Assembly (NCBI RefSeq): GCF_023276435.1
Contig: NZ_JALLPO010000004.1
Location: forward strand, 214,200-278,199
Source: Sphaerisporangium perillae
Lineage (GTDB): Bacteria; Actinomycetota; Actinomycetes; Streptosporangiales; Streptosporangiaceae
Direction: 5' to 3'
Length of the DNA stretch: 64,000 nucleotides
Below the pieces are notes generated by a model. It made no database searches and was not told where the DNA came from. It saw nothing but the letters and a program-made list of their open reading frames with translations. Positions within the stretch are counted from its first letter, which is position 1. Each line of letters begins with the position of its first letter. Of this stretch, positions 4,054 through 50,643 are shown one piece after another. A program made the translations under genes and the position numbers.

Positions 4054-5322
4054 TTAGCGGGAGAGGGCGCGGCGCAGGCGGCTGAGGGGGCGGGGCCTGG
4101 CGGGCTCGGAGGCCGGCAGCAGCCCGACGGAGGTCAGGCGGCGGTTCTTGAAGTAGCGCGGGTCGGGGCCGTGGGTCTCGATGTGGCGGGCGGCGGCGTC
4201 GCGAAGCGCCGGGTAGGCCTCGCTCTGCATGCAGAAGCCGACGGCCTCGACCAGCGAGGGCAGGTCGGCGGCCGGGGGCTCGGTGATCGACCCGTCCTCC
4301 GAAAGGCGCGGCACGGTGGCGTCGACGATGGTCACCGGGATGCGGTTGCTGTTCTCGTAGGGCGCGAGCCGTTCGAGCACCGTGTCGCAGCCCATGGTGG
4401 CGATCGGGATGCCGAACAGCCGGTGCGCGGTCGTCAACGCGGTGGAGAAGCAGCCGACGACCAGCTTCGGGCGCAGCGCCAGGAAGCAGGCCTCCGCCGG
4501 CACGGTCTCGCCGGCCACGCTCAGCTCGACGCCCAGCTCGCGCGCCACCGCCCGCATCAGGCGGGCGTGGTGGCCTCCGGCCGCCGGGTGCGGCTTGAAC
4601 AGCACGCTGCGGTGCCCGCGCGCGGCGAGGGCGCGCAGCATGGCCGCGTGCAGCTCGGCCTCCTCCTCGGCGGTGACGATCTCCAGGGCCGAGAGGTACT
4701 GGCCGAGGATGACCGCGTCGCCGGACAGGCCGCTGGCCGGCGGCATCTCCTCCAGCACCTTGCGGAACGCCGCGTCGGGCAGCGGGTCGGGTGCGACGCC
4801 CACCTCCCGCAGCAGGAGCGGGGTGAGGCCGGGCACCAGGTCGAGGTGGAGGAGCCGGGTGATCCGCCCGGAGATCTCCTGCGGCAGCGGGTCGCGCGTC
4901 GGCCCGTAGCTCATCAGCCCGTCGGAGTACACGGTGATCGGGCAGTCGCGGATCAGCGCCGCCACCGTCCTGGCCGGCGGCACGGCCACCGACTCGAGGA
5001 TCAGTTCGGCCGGGCCGTCGTCCAGCGACAGGTAGGAGCGCACCAGGCGTTCGAGCATGGGCACCTCGATGACGCGGGCCTTCCAGTCGGAAGGGTGCAG
5101 CGGTGCCAGGATCTCGTTCCAGGACCGGACCTCGTCGAAGCGCGGCCGCAGCGCGGCGAAGCCGGGGGCCTCGTCCAGCGACGGGGTGATCTCCGGGATC
5201 GCGGCGTTGTTGGACACCAGCAGGATCCTGCGCCCGTCGTGCGGGCCGAACCTGCCCGCGTCCATCGCGGCGGCCAGCGTCATCGTCCCGAACAGTGTGG
5301 AGCTGTAGAAGACCTGGGTCAT
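4054..5322 (-). CDS. Polysialyltransferase-family glycosyltransferase (GT38-like)
   Basis: A 422-residue cytoplasmic protein opening MTQVFYSSTLFGTMTLAAAM. It resembles the alpha-2,8-polysialyltransferase family (POLYST). The donor-site motif SVLFKPHPAAGGHHARLM lies in the middle, and PKLVVGCFSTALTTAHRLFG, with the ST pair of these enzymes, follows. The family transfers CMP-activated nonulosonic acid to the growing end of a chain. The gene is last in a three-gene minus-strand operon: its ATG overlaps the stop of the GT2 gene (ATGA) and the CMP-sugar enzyme is encoded first. That arrangement supports a polymerase for a sialic acid- or Kdn-like cell-surface polymer. Actual substrate not determined. 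Confidence 0.8.
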   Translation of the reverse strand: MTQVFYSSTLFGTMTLAAAMDAGRFGPHDGRRILLVSNNAAIPEITPSLDEAPGFAALRPRFDEVRSWNEILAPLHPSDWKARVIEVPMLERLVRSYLSLDDGPAELILESVAVPPARTVAALIRDCPITVYSDGLMSYGPTRDPLPQEISGRITRLLHLDLVPGLTPLLLREVGVAPDPLPDAAFRKVLEEMPPASGLSGDAVILGQYLSALEIVTAEEEAELHAAMLRALAARGHRSVLFKPHPAAGGHHARLMRAVARELGVELSVAGETVPAEACFLALRPKLVVGCFSTALTTAHRLFGIPIATMGCDTVLERLAPYENSNRIPVTIVDATVPRLSEDGSITEPPAADLPSLVEAVGFCMQSEAYPALRDAAARHIETHGPDPRYFKNRRLTSVGLLPASEPARPRPLSRLRRALSR

Positions 5323-6281
5323 GAGAGGCGCTCCTCGGGCTCTGTGCGACGTCGGGGGAGCAGCGGGCCGAGCAGGGCCAGGCGCTCGGCGTCCAGCCCG
5401 GTCTCCTCCAGCATGGCCGCGGGGAGGCCGGCGAGGACGTCCTGCGCCCTGGCCTCGAAGCGGGCCCGCAGGGCGGGGGAGAACCGGTCGCCGAGCTCCA
5501 GGTGGTGCGCCAGCAGGGCGCAGAAGGTGCGCACCGCCTTGGGCAGCAGGTGCGGCTCGCCTTCGATCTGCTTGAACACCAGCTCGAACGCGTCGAAGAA
5601 GTGGAGCTGCCGCTCGTCGCCGACCTGGGTCAGTGAGGAGGGCACGAGCCGGCGGTAGAAGACCCCGGCGATGGAGGCCACCGCGAACGAGCGCGCCTCG
5701 CGGTGCAGCCGCCAGATCCAGGGGCGGTCCTCGGCGGTGTGCAGGTGGCCGGGGAAGGCCAGCAGATCCCCGAGCGCGCGCCGGTAGACGCCCGCCCAGG
5801 CGTAGGGGTAGTCCACCATGGTCTTGGCGCCGGCGGGCAGGATGCGGTCGCGGGGGTCGAGCACCACGCCGCGCCTTGCCTCCGGCGCGCGGTGGACGAC
5901 CCGCTTGCGCCCCTCGACCTGGACGTGGTCCACCCGGACGAAGTCGCAGCCGAGCCCGTCGATCGCGGCCACCAGCTCGGCGAGGTACCCCCGCGCCAGC
6001 CAGTCGTCACCGTCCAGGAAGGTGACGTACCGGCCGGACGCGAGGGACAGGCCGTGGTTGCGGGCGTCGGCCAGCCCGGCGGGGGAGGCGTTGCGCAGCA
6101 CGGTCAGGCCGGGCAGCTCGTCTCGGAAGTCGTCGATGATCTGCGGGGTCGCGTCCACCGACCCGTCGTCCACGACGATGAACTCGAAGTCCGGCCGCGC
6201 GTTGCGCCGCAGCGAGGCCAGCGCGTCGGCGATGAACGGCGCGCCATCTCGCACCGGCACCACGACCGACAGCGTTATCAC
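5319..6281 (-). CDS. Family 2 glycosyltransferase
   Basis: A 320-residue protein starts at GTG 6281, chosen because the GT2 fold begins immediately (VITLSVVVPVRDGAPFIADA) and the previous gene stops 15 bases upstream. N-terminal GT-A motifs are VVDDGSVDATPQII (nucleotide binding) and YVTFLDGDDW, with the metal-binding DxD. The C-terminal half, including FYRRLVPSSLTQVGDERQLHFF, is typical of wall-polymer GT2 enzymes such as TagF-associated or capsular types. There are no membrane segments. It lies between the CMP-nonulosonate enzyme and the polysialyltransferase-like gene, overlapping the latter by four bases, so it probably makes the linker or a side residue of the same polymer. Confidence 0.85.
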   Translation of the reverse strand: MITLSVVVPVRDGAPFIADALASLRRNARPDFEFIVVDDGSVDATPQIIDDFRDELPGLTVLRNASPAGLADARNHGLSLASGRYVTFLDGDDWLARGYLAELVAAIDGLGCDFVRVDHVQVEGRKRVVHRAPEARRGVVLDPRDRILPAGAKTMVDYPYAWAGVYRRALGDLLAFPGHLHTAEDRPWIWRLHREARSFAVASIAGVFYRRLVPSSLTQVGDERQLHFFDAFELVFKQIEGEPHLLPKAVRTFCALLAHHLELGDRFSPALRARFEARAQDVLAGLPAAMLEETGLDAERLALLGPLLPRRRTEPEERLS

Positions 6282-6295
6282 CGGCGTCGCCCCGG

Positions 6296-8356
6296 TCAGA
6301 CGGTGACGCGTCGCAGGCGGGCCTTCGGCGCCTCCTCGCCGGGGAACACCCGCTTGACGCCGTCGCCGAGCGCGGACTCGATGATCCGGATGTCGCGGAC
6401 CAGGTGCTCCAGGCCGCTCGGCTCCAGCGAGGCGGCGTGGTCGGACCCCCACATCGTGCGGTCCAGGGTGATGTGGCGCTCCACGGTCACCGCGCCGAGC
6501 GTGACGGCGGCGAGGGAGATCTGCAGCCCCCGCTCGTGCCCGGAGTAGCCCACCGGGACGCCGTACCGGTCCTGCAGCGTGATGATCGTGCGCAGGTTGG
6601 CCTCCTCCGGCGGCAGCGGGTAGGTGGAGGTGGAGTGCATGATCACCAGCTTGGAGGTGCCGAGGATCTCCACGGCCTGGTCGATCTCCTCGAGCGTCGA
6701 CATGCCGGTCGACAGGATGAGCGGCTTGCCGGTGGCGGCGAGCCGGCGCAGCAACTCGTGGTCGGTCACGCTGGCCGAGGCGACCTTGTGCGCGACGACG
6801 TCCATCGCCTCCAGGAAGTCCACCGAGGGGACGTCCCAGGGGGAGGCGAACCAGTCCAGGCCGCGCTCGGCGCAGTACTTGGCGATCTGGGTGTACTCGT
6901 CGGCCTCGAACTCCACCCGGTACTTGTACTCCAGGTAGGTCATCTCGCCCCACGGCGTCTGGCGGATCTGGTCGCGCTGGTGCATCGGCACGGCGATCTC
7001 CGGCGTGCGCTTCTGGAACTTCACCGCCTGGCAGCCGGCCTCGGCCGCGACGTCGATGAGGCGGCGCGCGATGTCCAGGTCGCCGTTGTGGTTGATGCCG
7101 ATCTCGCCGATGACGTACACCGGCTGCCCCGGCCCGACCAGCGACTCGCCGATCTGGACAGGGGTGCCCTTGACGCGGATCGTGGCGCGCGGGCCCGCGG
7201 CCGTGGGCTCGGCGTCGACCGGCCGGGCGGCGAGGACGCGGTCGCACAGCTCCCGCACGGCGCCCGCGCCGCCCTGGTGGTCGAGGACGATGCGGGCGGC
7301 GGCCCGCACCCGGGGGTGGGCGTCGGGCACGGAGACCGGCCAGCCGACGAGCTCCATGCAGCCGAGGTCGTTGAGGTCGTTTCCGACGTAGGCCACGCGG
7401 GCCGGGTCCAGCCCCTCGATGCTGAGCCAGTCGCGCAGGGCGGTCTGCTTGGAGGCCAGCCCCTGCAGGACGGGCACGCCGAGCTTGCGGGCGCGGGCGG
7501 CCACCACCGGGTTGCGCTCGGTCGACAGGACGAGCAGCTTGACGCCGGACCGCTTGAGCAGGGCGATCCCGAGGCCGTCGGAGCGGCTGACGGCCACCAT
7601 CTCGCGGCCCTCCTGGTCGACGTAGACCAGGTCGTCGGTGTGCACGCCGTCGAAGTCGGTGACGACCGCGTCCACGTCGAGCGGCCCCGGCCGGTCCACG
7701 AACGGCGCCAGCGCCCGTACGATCTCCAGGTCCTCGGGGGTGTCGATCTCGACGGCGTGGCGGGAGGGCACGGGCTGGACCGCGACGGTGCCGAAGAACC
7801 GGTGCCCGTGCTCGCGCAGTCCCGCGGTGCGGATGGCGTAGAAGGCGCCGGTCTCGCGGTAGTCGGGCTCGCGGTCCTGGCGGCGCGGCCGGTGGGCCGG
7901 GTCGTGGTTGACCCCGCTCACACCGCCGTCGCCGGCGCTCCACACGAACTCGTGGGTCGGCAGGCCGGAGAACACCACGTCGGCGGTGCCGTCGAGCACC
8001 TTGGCGATGGCGGCGTCCAGGTCGGCCGGGTCGATGAAGGCGCTGGTGCACTGGACGAGGACGACGATCTCGGGGTCGGCGTCGAGCTGGTCGAGCGCGT
8101 GGAGCAGCGCCGACTCGCTGGAGGCCGTCGCGCCGCTCAGCTCGGCGGGGCGCTCGATCACCCGGGCGCCGGCGGCGGCCGCCGCGGCGGCGATGCCGTC
8201 GTGGTCGGTGCTGACGACCACCTCGTCGATGAGCTCGGCCCCCGTGCAGGAGGCCACCGCGCGGGTGACCAGGGGCGTGCCGCCCACCTTGGCCAGGTTC
8301 TTGAGCGGGACGCCCGCAGAACCTCCACGGGCGGGGACGACGGCCAGGACTCGCAA
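6296..8356 (-). CDS. Trifunctional nonulosonate enzyme: NeuA-HAD phosphatase-NeuB fusion
   Basis: A 686-residue fusion. Residues 1-220 are a CMP-nonulosonate cytidylyltransferase, with signature VVPARGGSAGVPLKN and the later QCTSAFIDP. Residues 228-375 are a KdsC-like HAD phosphatase: nucleophile Asp234 in TDFDGVHTDD, VLSTERNPVVAARA, and the acidic motif VGNDLNDLGCM. Residues 400-686 are a NeuB-type synthase TIM barrel: GEIGINHNGDLDIA, VKFQKR, ASPWD, STGMSTLEEID, GYSGHERG, VERHITLD. It could condense a sugar phosphate with PEP, dephosphorylate the product and activate it with CTP. The chain stops at KARLRRVTV, where NeuB normally continues into its SAF (antifreeze-like) domain, so that domain is absent. 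It is first in the operon. Neu5Ac versus Kdn cannot be told from sequence. Confidence 0.9.
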   Translation of the reverse strand: MRVLAVVPARGGSAGVPLKNLAKVGGTPLVTRAVASCTGAELIDEVVVSTDHDGIAAAAAAAGARVIERPAELSGATASSESALLHALDQLDADPEIVVLVQCTSAFIDPADLDAAIAKVLDGTADVVFSGLPTHEFVWSAGDGGVSGVNHDPAHRPRRQDREPDYRETGAFYAIRTAGLREHGHRFFGTVAVQPVPSRHAVEIDTPEDLEIVRALAPFVDRPGPLDVDAVVTDFDGVHTDDLVYVDQEGREMVAVSRSDGLGIALLKRSGVKLLVLSTERNPVVAARARKLGVPVLQGLASKQTALRDWLSIEGLDPARVAYVGNDLNDLGCMELVGWPVSVPDAHPRVRAAARIVLDHQGGAGAVRELCDRVLAARPVDAEPTAAGPRATIRVKGTPVQIGESLVGPGQPVYVIGEIGINHNGDLDIARRLIDVAAEAGCQAVKFQKRTPEIAVPMHQRDQIRQTPWGEMTYLEYKYRVEFEADEYTQIAKYCAERGLDWFASPWDVPSVDFLEAMDVVAHKVASASVTDHELLRRLAATGKPLILSTGMSTLEEIDQAVEILGTSKLVIMHSTSTYPLPPEEANLRTIITLQDRYGVPVGYSGHERGLQISLAAVTLGAVTVERHITLDRTMWGSDHAASLEPSGLEHLVRDIRIIESALGDGVKRVFPGEEAPKARLRRVTV

Positions 8357-12305: not shown

Positions 12306-13604
12306 TCAGCGGCGGGGCGGGTCGATCCGGTTGCCCTGCTGCGTGAACAGCATGAGCCTGCTGAGGTCCACCGCGACGCGGCCGTGCTCCCCGGCGCGCC
12401 ACACCGGACGGGAGCCGAGCCGCACCACCAGGTCGGCGCGGCGGTGGTGGCCGCTGCCGACGGGAGGCGCCTCCTCGGCGACCTGCTCCTCGGCGCCGGA
12501 CATCAGGCGCCGCATCACCGCGCGCACCTTGCTCGCCGGGCCGCCGGCGGCGTGCCCGTTGCCGTTGGCGTACCCGTTGACCGTCGCCGGACCCGGCTCC
12601 GGGGCGGGCACCGCGGGGATGCCCACCTCCAGGTAGGCGAGCCATTCGTGGCCGTGGTACTCAAGCGCCCTGACCCTGCCGGTGAAGTGCGGGCCGTCGA
12701 CGCCTTCGGGGATGGGCGTCAGCCCGTCCGGCCGGATGCCGACGATGATCTGGCTGCCGGTGTGCTGGGAGACCGCGTAGGCCCGGGGATCGGTCCAGGG
12801 CATCGTGATCTGGTGCAGCCCGAAGTCCAGGGAGATGTATTGGTTCTGCGGGGTCCGTACCATCGCCGACAGCAGGTTGAGCTGCTGCGAGCTGAGGAAC
12901 GCCGCCACGAACGCGGTGGCCGGGTCGTTGTAGATCTGCCCCGGGGTGCCCACGTCCTGCAGAATGCCGCGGTTCATGATGGCGATGCGGTCGGCCAGCG
13001 TGAGGGCCTCGACCTGGTCGTGCGTCACGTAGATCGTCGTCACGCCGAGCGCGCGGACCAGCGAGGAGATCTCCATGCGCAGCTCGGTGCGCATGCCCGC
13101 GTCCAGGTTGGACAGCGGCTCGTCCATGAGGAACAACGACGGCTGCCTGACGATGGCCCTGCCCATGGCGACGCGCTGGCGCTGCCCACCGGAGAGCGTT
13201 CCAGGGCGGCGGTCCAGCGTCTCGTCGATATGTAAGGCGCGGGACAGCTCGATGACCCGTTCTCTGATCATGTTCGGGTCGGCCTTGGCGATCTCCAGCG
13301 GGAAGGAGAGGTTGCCGCGGACGCTGCGGTGCGGGTAGAGGGCGCCGTTCTGGAAGACCATCGCCACATCGCGGTCGCGGGGAGCGAGGTCGTTGGCGAT
13401 CCGCCCGTCGAGGTAGAGGTCTCCGGAGGTGATCTCCTCAAGGCCGGCGATCATGCGGAGCAAGGTGGACTTGCCGCATCCCGATGGTCCGAGCAGGACG
13501 AGGAGCTCGCCCTCCTCCGCGCGCAGGTTCATGCGATCGACCGCGAGATGCCCCCCGGGGTACACCTTCGTCACGCTGTCGAGAACGACGGTACTCATCG
13601 TCAC
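12306..13604 (-). CDS. Sugar ABC transporter ATPase (MalK/MsmK/UgpC type)
   Basis: A 432-residue ATPase with Walker A GPSGCGKST, a Q-loop at MVFQNGALYPH, signature LSGGQRQRVAMGRAIVR, Walker B LFLMDEPLSNLD and switch His in YVTHDQ. The C-terminal MalK-like regulatory (TOBE) region begins near residue 240 (IIVGIRPDGLTP). About 60 Gly/Ala/Asn-rich residues (including ATVNGYANGNGHAAGG) interrupt that region near residue 330. It should energise the divergent binding protein and permeases at 14.0-17.2 kb. GTG 13604 is five bases after GGAGG; ATG 13598 is the alternative. Actinomycetes often use one such ATPase for several sugar importers. Confidence 0.9.
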   Translation of the reverse strand: MTMSTVVLDSVTKVYPGGHLAVDRMNLRAEEGELLVLLGPSGCGKSTLLRMIAGLEEITSGDLYLDGRIANDLAPRDRDVAMVFQNGALYPHRSVRGNLSFPLEIAKADPNMIRERVIELSRALHIDETLDRRPGTLSGGQRQRVAMGRAIVRQPSLFLMDEPLSNLDAGMRTELRMEISSLVRALGVTTIYVTHDQVEALTLADRIAIMNRGILQDVGTPGQIYNDPATAFVAAFLSSQQLNLLSAMVRTPQNQYISLDFGLHQITMPWTDPRAYAVSQHTGSQIIVGIRPDGLTPIPEGVDGPHFTGRVRALEYHGHEWLAYLEVGIPAVPAPEPGPATVNGYANGNGHAAGGPASKVRAVMRRLMSGAEEQVAEEAPPVGSGHHRRADLVVRLGSRPVWRAGEHGRVAVDLSRLMLFTQQGNRIDPPRR

Positions 13605-23413: not shown

Positions 23414-24646
23414 GTGGGTGACATGTCGGCCGCGTCTGGTGGATCACCACCCGCCTTCGGGCTCGAATGGATTCTCGGTCCCCTGCCTGTCGAGGAATTC
23501 CTGCGGACGCACTGGGAGTTGGAGCCCCTGCTTATAAAAAGAGGGGATCCGTCCTACTTCCAGGATCTGCCGGGCCTGGAGAAAGTCGACGAGTTGATCT
23601 CCGCCGCATCGGGCAGGATGGGCGCGATGGGCGATGGACTCCTGGTCAAATCCGACGGCAACGGCGGCATATCGGAAAAGAAGTTGCGCGTGGGCGCCGA
23701 CGGCATGATGGACATCGAAGAGATCTACAGCTCCTATCACCAAGGCTATTCCCTTGTCGTCAACCAGATCCACCGCAAGTCCCCGGCGGTCGCCCGGCTG
23801 TGCCTGGCACTGGAGACCGAGCTGCATCACCGGGCCGGGGCCAACCTCTACCTGACGCCGCGCCACGGTCAGGGATTCCTGCCGCACGCGGACACGCACG
23901 ATGTCGTGATCCTGCAACTGCACGGGGAAAAGCAGTGGCACATCGGCGAGCCGTCGGTCGACCTGCCGTTGGCGGCGTCCAAGCAGAGACGTCCGCCGTC
24001 GATGCGGGACCACCGCACCTTTCATCTGGAGACGGGCGACGCGCTGTACCTGCCCCGAGGGTTTCCCCATGAGGCGGTGACGAGCGGACGATCATCGTTG
24101 CACCTGACCGTCGGCATCCACGCCTACCGGTGGGTGGATCTGCTGCACGAGGCGCTCAACGCGCTCGCCGACGAGCAGGTCGAGTTCAGAAGGGCGCTGG
24201 CGCCCGGGTTCCTGGATCTGCCGCTGGACTCCACTCGCCTGGCGGCCGTGGCCGAGGAACTGGCGCGGGCGTTGACGCACACGCCGCTGGCCGAACGCGC
24301 CAAGAGCCGGCTCGGCGGCCAGTTGCTCCGAACGCGCAAGGCGGCGCTCAGAAGTCATTTCCGATCGATCGACGCGATCGCGGCCATCACCGAACACTCG
24401 GTCGTGTCGCGGCCACGCGAGCTGCTGTGCCGGGTGCACGCCACTGGCGAGGAGGCGACGATCGAATTCCCGGCCAACTACGTCAGCGGCCCGGTAATGA
24501 TCAAGCCTGCCCTGGAGTTCGTCGCGGCACATGAGCGATTCGTCGTCGGAGACCTTCCCGGTGGTCTGTCGGCCGATCAGAAGGTCGATCTGGTGACTCG
24601 CCTGATCAGTGAAGGGTTACTCGACTACGTAGGGGAGAAGCCGTGA
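23414..24646 (+). CDS. JmjC/cupin-fold Fe(II)/2-oxoglutarate oxygenase
   Basis: A 410-residue oxygenase related to the bacterial ribosomal-oxygenase (YcfD/RoxA, JmjC_2) group. The opening FGLEWILGPLPVEEFLRTHWELEPLLI is the family N-terminus. Iron ligands are His158 and Asp160 in LPHADTHD, and the distal His219 is in LYLPRGFPHEA. A dimerisation/winged-helix-like C-terminal half follows. The family hydroxylates side chains of proteins (Arg, His, Asn, Asp). Here the gene is coupled to two small genes with NHLP leaders: its TGA overlaps the ATG of the first. A peptide-modifying hydroxylase is therefore inferred. GTG 23414 or ATG 23423; neither has a clear ribosome site. Not the housekeeping ribosomal oxygenase by context. 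Confidence 0.85.
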   Translation: MGDMSAASGGSPPAFGLEWILGPLPVEEFLRTHWELEPLLIKRGDPSYFQDLPGLEKVDELISAASGRMGAMGDGLLVKSDGNGGISEKKLRVGADGMMDIEEIYSSYHQGYSLVVNQIHRKSPAVARLCLALETELHHRAGANLYLTPRHGQGFLPHADTHDVVILQLHGEKQWHIGEPSVDLPLAASKQRRPPSMRDHRTFHLETGDALYLPRGFPHEAVTSGRSSLHLTVGIHAYRWVDLLHEALNALADEQVEFRRALAPGFLDLPLDSTRLAAVAEELARALTHTPLAERAKSRLGGQLLRTRKAALRSHFRSIDAIAAITEHSVVSRPRELLCRVHATGEEATIEFPANYVSGPVMIKPALEFVAAHERFVVGDLPGGLSADQKVDLVTRLISEGLLDYVGEKP

Positions 24647-25149
24647 TGGCCACCAGCGATGGGAACAAGGAACCTCCCGAGCCCGCTCCGGCATTCGGCG
24701 ACGAGGACGAACGCCTGTTCCGGCTGTGGTTCGAAAGCCTTGTGCTCCAGGACAAGCGCTATCTGAACAAGGGCCTGGCCGTGCTCGCCCGGATGGCGAT
24801 GGCCGATGAGGAGTTCAGAGCCCGCCTGGTCGACGACCCCGACGGTGCCCTGCACGGCCTGCGCGAGCGGCTCCGGCTGCCTGCCGGTGTCAAGCTGAAC
24901 TTCTTCGACAACACCCACGACAGCTTGAACCTGGTGCTTCCCCCGCGGGCCGGAGACGTCCGCAACCGGACGCATGCGCTGCGCGAGATCCTGCGCTCTC
25001 GCACGACCGAATCCGACGCGTTCCTGTCGGACGACTTCGACTTCTACTTCAACACACACTCCGGGGGCGGCCCCCTGGACCCCGAGAGCGCCGACCCGCC
25101 CATCTTCCTCGGGCCGGACGAGCCCGAATTCCTACCGCCGCCGGAGTGA
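24646..25149 (+). CDS. NHLP-leader-like precursor peptide 1
   Basis: A 167-residue acidic protein. Residues 20-105 match the nitrile-hydratase-like leader pattern of RiPP precursors: helical LARMAMADEEFRARLVDDP, GALHGLRERLRLPAGVKLNF, then FDNTHDSLNLVLPP. After LPP come a charged box ending LREILRSRTTES, an Asp/Phe-rich stretch DAFLSDDFDFYFNTHSGGG, and a Pro-rich acidic tail ending EFLPPPE. There is no GG cleavage motif and no Cys, so it is not a lanthipeptide or sactipeptide core. ATG 24646 is eight bases after GGAG and overlaps the oxygenase stop (TGATG). Likely an oxygenase substrate; product unknown. Confidence 0.75.
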   Translation: MATSDGNKEPPEPAPAFGDEDERLFRLWFESLVLQDKRYLNKGLAVLARMAMADEEFRARLVDDPDGALHGLRERLRLPAGVKLNFFDNTHDSLNLVLPPRAGDVRNRTHALREILRSRTTESDAFLSDDFDFYFNTHSGGGPLDPESADPPIFLGPDEPEFLPPPE

Positions 25150-25154
25150 CCGTG

Positions 25155-25622
25155 ATGGACAGTGACAGGCAGGACGACGAACTCCTCGAGGCCAAGCTCC
25201 TTCTGCGACTGTGGAAGGAGAGCCTGGTCATGCAAGACACCCGCTATCGGGCCAAGGCGCTGCTCAGGCTGGCCGCGCTGGCGATGACCAGCGAGGAGTA
25301 CCGGGCGCGGCTGGTCGGCGACACCCAGGCCGTCCTCAGCGAGATGCGACTGCTGGATGATCTGCCGGAAGGCGTGACACTGAAGTTCTACGACAACACC
25401 TCCGACACTCTGCACGTGGTGCTGCCACCCCGCACACAGGAACTGCACGACCGGCCACTGCCATTCCGCGAGCTACTGCGCTCGAGGACCTCGCAGGACT
25501 CGTTCCTGCTCGACGACATCGACCTGGGCGACTGGAGTGATCTCATCCCGAACGGAGTCGCCGACGGCGGAGACATGGCCATTCTCGACCTACCGATCAT
25601 CGTGCTGCCCGAATCGGAGTAG
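25155..25622 (+). CDS. NHLP-leader-like precursor peptide 2
   Basis: A 155-residue paralogue of the preceding protein. Its leader-like region runs ESLVMQDTRYRAKALLRLAA, TSEEYRARLVGDTQAVLSEM, LPEGVTLKFYDNTSDTLHVV, LPP. It is followed by the same box, here FRELLRSRTSQDSF, an acidic DDIDLGDWSDL and a hydrophobic end AILDLPIIVLPESE. The two proteins share the leader and the LRSRT box but differ in the tail, as expected if the tail is a variable core. ATG 25155 is eight bases after GGAG; an upstream GTG 25146 overlaps the previous stop. It ends the operon. No protease or transporter gene follows. Confidence 0.75.
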   Translation: MDSDRQDDELLEAKLLLRLWKESLVMQDTRYRAKALLRLAALAMTSEEYRARLVGDTQAVLSEMRLLDDLPEGVTLKFYDNTSDTLHVVLPPRTQELHDRPLPFRELLRSRTSQDSFLLDDIDLGDWSDLIPNGVADGGDMAILDLPIIVLPESE

Positions 25623-43520: not shown

Positions 43521-44885
43521 TCACAGCCGCTGACGCGCCGTCCGCCGCTTCAGCGCCGACAGCAGCGACGCGGTGTCGGCGATGCCGTACCCGTAGTCGT
43601 AGTCGAACCCCACGTCGCTGCGGTCCTCGGCGGTGCGGTGCAGCAGGGTGCGCAGCTGGCTCGGGGAGATCTGGGAGGCGGGCCAGCGGGTGCGGATCGC
43701 GGCCACGAGCCCGGCGGCCACCGGGCAGGCGGCCGAGGTGCCCGAGTCGGGCGTGTCATCGCCGAACGCCTTGGAACCGGAGAAGTGCGTGTAGGCGCAG
43801 ATGTCGGGCTTGTGGTCGCTCAGCCGCCCCGGCCCCTGCGAGGAGTAGCCCACCCGCTCGCCGCTCGTGTCGACGCCGCCGACCGACAGGACCTGCGGGT
43901 GGGAGTTGGCGCCGACGATGGGACGGCCGGGAAAGCCGCACCGGCGGTCCTTGCACTCGAGACCGCAGTTGCCCGCCGCGAACAGGATGTCGGCGCCCGC
44001 CTGCTCCAGGCTGCCCACGATGATGTTGAACGGGTGGGCCGCGTTGTCGGAGTAGTTGCCCGGCTGCCCGGGAGGCAGGTCCCAGAGCGGGGAGAACGAC
44101 CCCCAGCTGTTGCTGACGACCAGGGCCCGGGTGGCGGCGGGCTGCGCGTCGAGGACCGAGCGCAGGTGGGCGAACGCGGCCACCGCGTCGGAGAGCAGGC
44201 CGTCCATGGCCGTGCCGCCCTGCCGCCGCGAGAGCAGGACCGGCACGTCGATCAGCGTGGCGCGCGGAGCGGCGATGAGCGTGTCGAAGGCGCACATCGT
44301 GCCGTGGTCGACGGCGAACCCTCCGGCCTGGCCGGAGACGCCGGATGGGTTCCAGCTCCGGTCGTGGTCGACGGTCACGTCCCTGCCGAACTGACGGGTC
44401 ACGTGGGCGGCGTTGACGCCGGTGTCGCAGACCGCGAGCGCCACGCCCGTGCCGTCGTAGCCCTCGGCCTGCAGCTCGGTCACCCGCATCAGGCGGGCGA
44501 CGTCCTGCCAGGTGCCGACGGAAGGGGTGCCCGCGCAGGTGAGGCTGGTCTCGATCACCGGGTCGGCGTAGACGCCGATCACGTCGCGGGCGCGGCCCGG
44601 CAGCAACGCCAGGCGCGCGGAGCTCTCGTCGTCGGAGATCTCGCCGCGCACCAGGACCGAGGCCTCCTCCGGCGCCATGGAGAACAGCAGCGGCTGGTTG
44701 AGCGACAGCGGATCGCCGCCGGCGGTGGCCGGCCGGGCCCTCGGCAGGGCGACGGGGGTGTAGGAGTGGTCGAGCGCGACCCCGGGAAGGCCGTCGGTGA
44801 CGTCCGCGGTGGTGGCGGTGAGGTCGGGCGCCGCCACGGCGGCGACGATGTCGGGAGAGGGACGGAGCTGGATCAGGACCCGCAT
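43521..44885 (-). CDS. S8-family subtilisin-like serine protease without signal peptide
   Basis: A 454-residue protease with the full S8 triad: Asp154 (ALAVCDTGVN), His194 (FAVDHGTMCAF), Ser384 (DSGTSAACPVAAG), and oxyanion Asn306 (LFAAGNCG). About 130 N-terminal residues (MRVLIQLRPSPDIVAAVA onward) may be a propeptide/I9-like domain. There is no signal peptide or membrane anchor, so the enzyme is intracellular or exported by another route. Paired Cys at C307, C311 and C316 (NCGLECKDRRCGF) could bind metal or form a disulfide. The partner small gene follows 47 bases downstream. Confidence 0.88.
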   Translation of the reverse strand: MRVLIQLRPSPDIVAAVAAPDLTATTADVTDGLPGVALDHSYTPVALPRARPATAGGDPLSLNQPLLFSMAPEEASVLVRGEISDDESSARLALLPGRARDVIGVYADPVIETSLTCAGTPSVGTWQDVARLMRVTELQAEGYDGTGVALAVCDTGVNAAHVTRQFGRDVTVDHDRSWNPSGVSGQAGGFAVDHGTMCAFDTLIAAPRATLIDVPVLLSRRQGGTAMDGLLSDAVAAFAHLRSVLDAQPAATRALVVSNSWGSFSPLWDLPPGQPGNYSDNAAHPFNIIVGSLEQAGADILFAAGNCGLECKDRRCGFPGRPIVGANSHPQVLSVGGVDTSGERVGYSSQGPGRLSDHKPDICAYTHFSGSKAFGDDTPDSGTSAACPVAAGLVAAIRTRWPASQISPSQLRTLLHRTAEDRSDVGFDYDYGYGIADTASLLSALKRRTARQRL

Positions 44886-49092: not shown

Positions 49093-50643
49093 CTACGAGG
49101 TCGAGGAGGCGGAGGCGAGCCAGGTGTTGCACTGGAAGGCCTTGGTCCGCTCGTAGCCCTGCCTGAACCAGCGGCCGCTGTTCGGCGGGCTGCCGTGGTC
49201 GCGGGGGTACCCCGGCCAGTCGCCGACGTTGGAGAAGAAGTAGTACAGGTTGTTGCGGCGGGTCGCCGGGATCGGGTAGCCGGCCGCCACAGACCTCATC
49301 CACATGCCGCTGAAGCAGTTCGCCTGCAGCTCGTACCTGCGGCTCAGCGCGAGCCTGCCGCTCTGCGTCCGCGAGGACAGCGTCTTGGTCCACCAGGAGT
49401 TGGCCAGCCCGGACAGCTGCTGCACGTGGTGACCGTACTCGTGGGCCATCATGCCGGTGAACGCGCCGTGCCAGCTGGAGAGCGACCCGTACCCCCGCTG
49501 GTTGCCCCTGCCCTGTGCCATCGCCGAGGTCGAGGCGTAGATCGTCGAGTTGCGCGGGCAGTAGTAGGGGACGATGCTTCCCCGCTGCGGGAAGTCGCCG
49601 CACGCGCCCCGTCCCCCTCGTGCGGTGATGGCGTAGTGGGGCGGGGCGAAGGCGATGCCGACGCGGCCCAGCGCGGCGGACCACGTCCGGTTCATGCACT
49701 GCCCCGTCTTCAGGATCAGTGACCTCAGCTGGGCGTTGTTGAAGACATTGGTCGGGGCGGCGCGGCAGTTGGTCCGCGGCAGGGTGCCCACCCGGTAGAC
49801 CGTGTTCCCGGTCAGGCTGGTGTTCAGCTTGGGCAGGCTCTTGGCGGTGCTCGTCTCCGACGTGGAGTCGGAGGTGTCGCGGGTGGGCGTCGCCTTGGAG
49901 GAGGACGTCGGGAACGGCTTCGGGGTGTACGGCTTGAAGGTCGGCGCCACGAAGGTCGGGATCGCCACCGGAGAGGTCGGGTCGGGGTGACGGGTGCTCT
50001 TGAACAGCGCGGAGCCGATCACCAGCAGCACGAACACGGCGGCGATCACGCCGAATAGGCCGCCGATGACGCCCCCCGCGCTGGACTTGCGCCGCGGCGG
50101 GCGCCAGTGCGGCGGCATCGGGCCGCGCGGCCCGTACGGGCCGCCGGGCGGGCCAGGGGGAGGGGCCCAGCCCGGGGCGGGAAGCTGCGCCGGGTAGGGC
50201 GCCTGGCCGCCGCGCGGGTACGGCCCAGGGCCGCCCGGGGGCGGGTACGGAGCCTGGCCGCCTCCGGGGGGATACGGCTGCCCGCCGCCCGGCGGGTACG
50301 GCGCGGTCCCCGGCGGGTAGGGCCGCCCCCCTCCCGGCGGGGGAGCCTGGTGCGGCGGCCCCTGCGGGGGCTGCGGCCCTCCCGGCCCCTGCGGCGGGTA
50401 CGGCTGCCGGTAGGGCGACTGGGGCGGGGGCGGCTGGGCGGGTCCCGGCTGTCCCTGGGGCGGCCGGCCCTGCGGCGGGTACCCGGGCGGTGGCTGCCGC
50501 GGGTCGCGTGGCGGCTGCGGCGGGCCGGAAGGAGGGGCCGCCGGCCCGCCGGGACGTCCGGTCCATGCCGGGTCCTGGGGCGGCGGATAGGGATGGCGTC
50601 CGCCGGATGGTGGTGGAAGTGGGTGCTGTCCGTTACCCGCCAT
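49093..50643 (-). CDS. Membrane-anchored neutral zinc metallopeptidase (YpfJ family)
   Basis: A 516-residue protein. Residues 1-190 are an extreme Pro/Gly/Tyr-rich cytoplasmic tail with repeats of the PYPPGGGQ kind. One membrane helix follows (about 202-222, GGVIGGLFGVIAAVFVLLVI), then a Ser/Thr linker. The extracellular peptidase domain has the zinc site MMAHEYGHHVQQLSG and the downstream RRYELQANCFSGMWM. Several cysteines (NCRAAP, GQCMNR, GACGDF, YYCPR) could form disulfides. Function of the YpfJ family is unknown; wall-associated proteolysis is likely. ATG 50643 is used because the AAAGGGGG site is upstream. Confidence 0.9.
   Translation of the reverse strand: MAGNGQHPLPPPSGGRHPYPPPQDPAWTGRPGGPAAPPSGPPQPPRDPRQPPPGYPPQGRPPQGQPGPAQPPPPQSPYRQPYPPQGPGGPQPPQGPPHQAPPPGGGRPYPPGTAPYPPGGGQPYPPGGGQAPYPPPGGPGPYPRGGQAPYPAQLPAPGWAPPPGPPGGPYGPRGPMPPHWRPPRRKSSAGGVIGGLFGVIAAVFVLLVIGSALFKSTRHPDPTSPVAIPTFVAPTFKPYTPKPFPTSSSKATPTRDTSDSTSETSTAKSLPKLNTSLTGNTVYRVGTLPRTNCRAAPTNVFNNAQLRSLILKTGQCMNRTWSAALGRVGIAFAPPHYAITARGGRGACGDFPQRGSIVPYYCPRNSTIYASTSAMAQGRGNQRGYGSLSSWHGAFTGMMAHEYGHHVQQLSGLANSWWTKTLSSRTQSGRLALSRRYELQANCFSGMWMRSVAAGYPIPATRRNNLYYFFSNVGDWPGYPRDHGSPPNSGRWFRQGYERTKAFQCNTWLASASSTS

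Follow-up and report, generated by a model that had tools for sequence, protein, structure and literature searches.

Proteusins such as polytheonamide carry an NHLP leader, are sometimes acted on by a 2OG hydroxylase, and depend on radical SAM epimerases and a C39 exporter. ROX-type JmjC enzymes modify ribosomal proteins, where their known targets are Arg and His residues. Beyond these two classes, several published systems combine some of the parts discussed here. Passages of Bregman et al. 2025 (PMC12710340) describe fish and algal proteins in which PF08007 is joined to an RRE-like fold, with the closest bacterial homologues (~30% identity) in RiPP-like contexts; these share the PF08007 domain with the oxygenase presented below, but the passages mention no pairing with an NHLP protein, no precursor and no family of Asp-rich peptides, unlike our system. 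As excerpted from PMC12707348 and PMC12257519, the JmjC enzyme BipG and the cupin-like PbsQ hydroxylate ornithine in a biphenomycin-type ribosomal precursor—the kind of substrate we propose for our oxygenase—yet differ from it in their ornithine target and in clusters holding an MNIO, an arginase and a B12 radical SAM enzyme, a likeness drawn from description rather than sequence. PflA/PflC and PosA/PosC, in the relevant part of PMC12636437, join an NHLP-type precursor to a 2OG enzyme with no protease nearby, as at our locus; unlike ours, however, the enzyme is of the HEXXH type, and the pfl cluster adds an MNIO-nitroreductase, a GNAT and transporters. Our searches found no literature combining JmjC, NHLP and RiPP (two papers of 2025 fell outside their scope, Xia et al. 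on RiPP macrocyclisation by 2OG enzymes and Kim et al., which bears on Asp chemistry), and none joining a nitrile hydratase leader with JmjC.

The DNA analysed here, called the window throughout, is a stretch of 64,000 nucleotides from Sphaerisporangium perillae. Between positions 23414 and 25622 it holds three same-strand genes, one for a JmjC_2 oxygenase and two for small proteins (P0002 and P0003), with the following features:

23414..24646, + strand: JmjC_2 (PF08007) Fe(II)/2OG oxygenase, 410 aa (Pfam, 90.9 bits, E 6.1e-26)
23885..24070, + strand: iron triad His158 (23885–23887), Asp160 (23891–23893) and His219 (24068–24070), from a 12-row alignment
24395..24628, + strand: C-terminal domain of the oxygenase, residues about 328–405, candidate RRE-like/winged-helix precursor-binding domain (weak hhalign match)
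24644..24648, + strand: TGATG stop/start overlap from the oxygenase to P0002, read from the sequence
24646..25149, + strand: small protein 1 (P0002), candidate precursor (TIGR03793 E 1.5e-7, below cut-off)
24787–24948, + strand: NHLP-like stretch of P0002, residues 48–101 (TIGR03793)
25009..25146, + strand: acidic Pro-rich tail of P0002, residues 122–167, candidate core, without Lys, Arg or Cys
25155..25622, + strand: small protein 2 (P0003), candidate precursor (TIGR03793 E 1.7e-6 and TIGR01323 E 6.8e-7, both below cut-off)
25260–25457, + strand: NHLP-like stretch of P0003, residues 36–101 (TIGR03793)
25494..25619, + strand: acidic tail of P0003, residues 114–155, candidate core, without Lys, Arg, His or Cys

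The oxygenase reading frame starts at a GTG, with an alternative ATG at 23423. A first-pass annotation had spoken of three overlapping genes; this is true of the oxygenase and P0002, which share the TGATG, whereas overlap between P0002 and P0003 requires a GTG start at 25146, the ATG at 25155 leaving a 5-base gap. Fifty-six genes were called in the window and 36 of them scanned with Pfam (part at E ≤ 1e-3 or looser, part at E ≤ 1e-10 only), and among these 36 we found no radical SAM, LanM, YcaO or C39 domain. General ABC transporter genes at 12306, 57865 and 60749, an S8 peptidase gene at 43521 and a Zn peptidase gene at 49093 all lie apart from the operon. The first-pass annotation had likewise listed radical SAM, LanM, cyclodehydratase, C39 protease and dedicated transporter as missing, and none was found beside the operon. 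Its view that proteusin-type routes do not fit agrees with the scan: the NHLP-like leader is held in common with proteusins, but the radical SAM epimerase and its partners, C39 included, are absent from the 36 genes scanned. A promoter scan for sigma-70 types returned no site at the operon, against 0.2 expected. Elsewhere in the window (4054–8356), a polysialyltransferase-like protein is encoded near a NeuB/cytidylyltransferase fusion.

With a score far above the gathering cut-off of 22 bits, the oxygenase belongs to the JmjC_2/Cupin_4 family (PF08007), and His158, Asp160 and His219 are invariant across the 12 aligned rows, E. coli RoxA among them, in agreement with its original description as an Fe(II)/2OG oxygenase with intact iron ligands. 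The solved structures closest to it by sequence are NO66 and MINA53; with these and RoxA/YcfD it shares both sequence kinship in the JmjC part and the iron triad. Against a 12-sequence PqqD-like profile, the C-terminal domain gave a weak hhalign match (probability 3.5%, E 0.012; three control segments, E 0.096–0.2). It is plausible by analogy that this domain binds the small protein, since RRE-like folds fused to PF08007 are reported in the pertinent passages of PMC12710340.

P0002 and P0003 are paralogues, as first proposed, at 45% identity. Both match the TIGR03793 profile significantly (31.1 and 27.8 bits), yet below its curated cut-off of 50.9 bits, and at E ≤ 0.01 so do three of the four members of the small-protein family, which comprises the window's two proteins and one each from Streptomyces cirratus and a genome labelled G249. 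A profile built from three members matches the solved NHLP leaders 8tb1 (E 9e-6) and 9cjx (E 1.3e-3) as well as nitrile hydratase alpha 1v29 (E 5e-8), the protein that P0003 also resembles through TIGR01323. The NHLP leader pattern that the first-pass annotation had recognised, and for which it had suggested an HMM search, is thus backed by significant homology, though short of the curated score. A 201-aa NHLP-like protein from Streptomyces (L095, 1306–1911) scores 51.8 bits against TIGR03793, above the cut-off, in a short locus without JmjC. The metal site of nitrile hydratase alpha is a CxLCSC motif; none of the four small proteins contains a cysteine, and they are therefore not nitrile hydratases. 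We also rejected a phage or defence origin: the small proteins have no PHROG match, the three PHROGs that the oxygenase does match are of unknown function, and PADLOC flagged none of the three proteins.

Mean pairwise identity among the four small proteins, which are 155–176 aa long, is 49% in the leader-like region and 33% in the tail. All four tails are free of Cys, hold 0, 0, 3 and 9% Lys plus Arg, and keep a D-D/N-x-D motif, with a DPPI/DLPI end in three; Asp129, Asp132 and Asp145 (P0002 numbering) are invariant. Conservation in the tails could also reflect a folded acidic segment, a point against the RiPP-like reading given below. In the tail of P0003, the lack of Arg, His, Lys and Cys makes the Arg/His chemistry of ribosomal oxygenases such as RoxA impossible.

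The unit that recurs is the oxygenase with one small protein—a pair, not a trio—and it is found in two further genomes. In S. cirratus (L017), the single relative from one genome-collection scan, the oxygenase is 48–49% identical and one small protein lies directly downstream; in G249 (L024), which belongs to the window's family, the oxygenase is 57% identical and adjoins a small protein matching our profile at E 1.6e-42. At all three loci the small gene, as called, begins at or before the oxygenase stop. The survey of the trio across actinomycetes that had been suggested thus recovered the pair, but not the third gene. The pair is real but rare. In overlapping genome samples (the family, class-level and Streptomyces scans scoring at most 9–12 candidates per genome), the small-protein profile matched 5 of 297 family genomes, namely the window's own, G249 and three weak matches (two nitrile hydratases and one NHLP-like protein with no JmjC in its locus). 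The class-level sample yielded 4 matches in 394 genomes, strong only for the window's own, and the genus of G249 yielded 3 in 54, strong only for G249. Among 392 Streptomyces genomes 19 matched, strongly only S. cirratus, and 12 of 14 weak loci checked there carry the nitrile hydratase motif.

The flanks of G249 and the window have nothing but the pair in common, and beyond the pair those of S. cirratus have no more in common with the window than paralogues of general ABC, two-component and aldehyde dehydrogenase genes. This last comparison may overlook some genes, as the gene caller missed low-GC genes in L017 (and in L073 and L116; in several loci it also picked the antisense frame for repeat peptides). 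GC content is lower than the surroundings at each locus: 65.2% for the trio in a window of 71.4%, 55.5 in 70.6% for the S. cirratus pair, and 68.8 in 72.3% for the G249 pair. Given flanks without other shared orthologues and low GC throughout, the pair is probably a mobile two-part module that spread horizontally. Plasmid records held no copy of P0003 at E ≤ 0.01. Neither a protease nor an exporter, including any of C39 type, was seen in the 11 flank genes scanned at the S. cirratus and G249 loci, which agrees with the window operon; in S. cirratus, one general ABC ATPase gene lies at a distance of ~5 kb.

Relatives of the oxygenase were collected from 60 related genomes (25 with a match), 392 Streptomyces (194), 396 phylum-level genomes (59) and plasmid records (152), and the neighbourhoods inspected are those of the best-scoring ones. 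We built two maximum-likelihood trees of 47 rows, with E. coli RoxA as the single RoxA representative and NO66/MINA absent; the second omitted 15 of 62 JmjC rows (L074, at <300 aa, and 14 loci that include L008 and L081 but are for the most part of repeat-peptide types). In both, the oxygenases of the window, S. cirratus and G249 form one clade (100/99) far from RoxA, whose branch measures 3.7–4.6 as drawn. The smallest set holding the cyanobacterial RiPP-associated and type A/B JmjC rows is supported at 96/94 in the first tree and 98/96 in the second, with the clade of three inside. L122 and L123, neither of which has a called peptide gene next to it, are nearer to this clade in the second tree than the cyanobacterial rows are (95/91), and the nearest outside relative, L116 (genome G1210; 354 bits), groups with the clade there at 100/98. 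L116 adjoins a short ORF of ~61 aa, which fails the acidic-tail test described below, and an aKG-HExxH peptide beta-hydroxylase (TIGR04267, E 3e-21); we found no NHLP-like protein in its locus. Only 5 of 10 congeners of the window's species have any oxygenase match, the best (E 4e-39) being of another type (L080), so the enzyme is not a housekeeping one. On the basis of both trees, with their one RoxA, and of this patchy distribution we rejected a RoxA-type ribosomal oxygenase, and the grouping that would have spoken for housekeeping function was not observed.

The neighbours of these relatives are varied. Pseudanabaena relatives adjoin LanM, Nif11 and NHLP exporters, those of Streptantibioticus adjoin radical SAM and YcaO-TfuA genes, and LanB/LanC occur beside JmjC in a congener of S. 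perillae (L080, LanB-type). On one Streptantibioticus plasmid (L029, 1317–8776), two JmjC genes stand in a single series with a gene for a putative precursor of 92 aa, a YcaO-TfuA fusion and a radical SAM gene whose best model is StsB. In Streptomyces, a 48-aa DPVI-like repeat peptide accompanies JmjC, an S9 peptidase and an ABC transporter (L028 annotated, L069 scanned, L068 and L070 similar); these loci (L028 5805–7200, L068–L070) look like a self-contained cluster, whose S9 peptidase is weakly lasso-isopeptidase-like. Peptides of 50–57 aa rich in Asp/Asn occur with an ABC transporter in L071 and L072, L079 being similar and the L074 peptide lying 2 kb off. Asp-Gly-Gly-Ala repeat peptides stand beside JmjC in, for example, L075, L077, L078 and L084 (with Suc_Fer in L077, the sole one scanned), and Asp-Gly/Asp-Thr repeat peptides in L117, L119–L121, L124 and L126–L129. 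Across L075, L077, L078, L084, L117, L119–L121 and L124–L130 the arrangement is JmjC with an upstream Asp-repeat peptide, often followed by a ~300-aa protein, which in L077 is the Suc_Fer protein; such peptides look like a widespread family that is barely mentioned in the literature searched. Of the short precursors from genera other than Streptomyces, many have a D/E-rich I-x-T/V leader motif in common. Separately, a 7.9-kb mobilizable E. coli plasmid (L131, 2708–3601) bears a cupin gene with a tblastn match to the oxygenase, adjoined by an ABC transporter and a 232-aa protein gene. As far as these sequences go, the window operon appears to represent an uncommon and compact offshoot of a broad JmjC_2 group often encoded beside short, commonly Asp-rich peptides. 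The novelty claimed in the first-pass annotation is accordingly narrower than stated: the pertinent passages of PMC12710340 contain no NHLP pairing, but they allude to the wider group, and because they mention JmjC-RRE-like homologues in RiPP-like contexts, such proteins are already known and the NHLP-partnered pair is a variant of them.

Thirty-seven tails, hand-picked with acidity in mind from called genes beside JmjC, all contain Asp (37/37), followed by Ser (35), Ala (34), Pro (27), His (21), Asn (17) and Arg (8). Candidate peptides of L011, L027, L029, L030, L060 and L080 were omitted from this set and checked separately; of these eight peptides, three lack Asp throughout the final 30 residues (L027, L030 at 8109, and L080 at 1487), the L027 and L030 peptides adjoining cyanobacterial relatives and the former holding four Asn. 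A short neighbouring ORF with an acidic tail was present at 18 of 62 JmjC genes versus 4 of 87 control genes in a first test, whose thresholds missed the Asp-Gly-Gly-Ala repeats; four further settings were therefore run, and gave 25 versus 2, 26 versus 2, 21 versus 1 and 42 versus 5. The window's own tails pass the first test and fail the other four. Under these four, L122 passes three and L123 none; the six outlying rows (L008, L010, L011, L012, L060 and RoxA) pass none either.

We think it fairly probable, reasoning from sequence, that the locus encodes a minimal RiPP-like system. The NHLP-like domain of the small protein would act as leader and be bound by the oxygenase, perhaps through the C-terminal domain of the enzyme, which would then hydroxylate Asp/Asn in the acidic tail, with Asp129, Asp132 and Asp145 as the first candidates; enzymes from other loci may afterwards cleave off and export the tail, or the protein, once modified, may remain intracellular. 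This is close to the first-pass reading of a hydroxylase-only RiPP or non-secreted modified protein, of which the NHLP-like leaders, the RoxA-distinct oxygenase, the conserved pairing and the failure to find another RiPP enzyme beside the operon have held up, while leader-guided Asp/Asn hydroxylation is a step that we infer. A variant without any cleavage or export, in which the small proteins are full-length intracellular substrates hydroxylated for, e.g., a metal-binding or regulatory role, is unlikely in our estimate. It would agree with the missing protease and exporter beside all three pairs, with proteins rather long for precursors, with the retained tail motifs, and with the full-length NHLP precursor seen in lysates in the Pseudomonas Os17 work, as relayed in part of PMC12636437; the tails are, however, more divergent than the leaders, and some related JmjC clusters do include ABC transporters or an S9 peptidase.

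Less likely still, the small proteins might be partner or adaptor subunits of an oxygenase whose true substrate, e.g. a ribosomal protein, lies elsewhere. The resemblance of their domain to part of nitrile hydratase alpha, the ribosomal substrates of ROX-type enzymes and the JmjC relatives that have no recognised peptide gene all suit this idea, but it sits poorly with the distance from RoxA, with the patchy occurrence among congeners and with the many relatives that adjoin short peptide genes in place of an NHLP-like domain. That the operon is decayed or non-functional seems very improbable: its rarity, atypical GC and lack of a sigma-70-type promoter match would be compatible with decay, against which stand intact reading frames, conserved iron ligands and a gene overlap kept in three genera. 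A broader reading, compatible with the minimal RiPP-like system and held more tentatively, is that actinobacterial PF08007 JmjC enzymes represent a large RiPP superclass which beta-hydroxylates Asp (or Asn) in Asp-rich ribosomal peptides, yielding beta-hydroxyaspartate metal ligands. In the window's branch, an NHLP-like domain would have replaced the short leader with its D/E-rich I-x-T/V motif, and a dedicated exporter would have been lost or would never have existed. We regard this as possible but doubtful; the Asp-free candidate peptides of L027, L030 and L080 led us to trim our confidence in the minimal RiPP-like system slightly, and in the superclass a little more.

If the minimal RiPP-like system is real, its two-gene hydroxylation module would rank among the smallest RiPP-like systems, and ROX-type JmjC enzymes would have been recruited as peptide tailors next to a wide range of dissimilar precursors. 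For the Asp-repeat peptides that recur beside JmjC there would then be a testable prediction: Asp hydroxylation and, possibly, metal binding.
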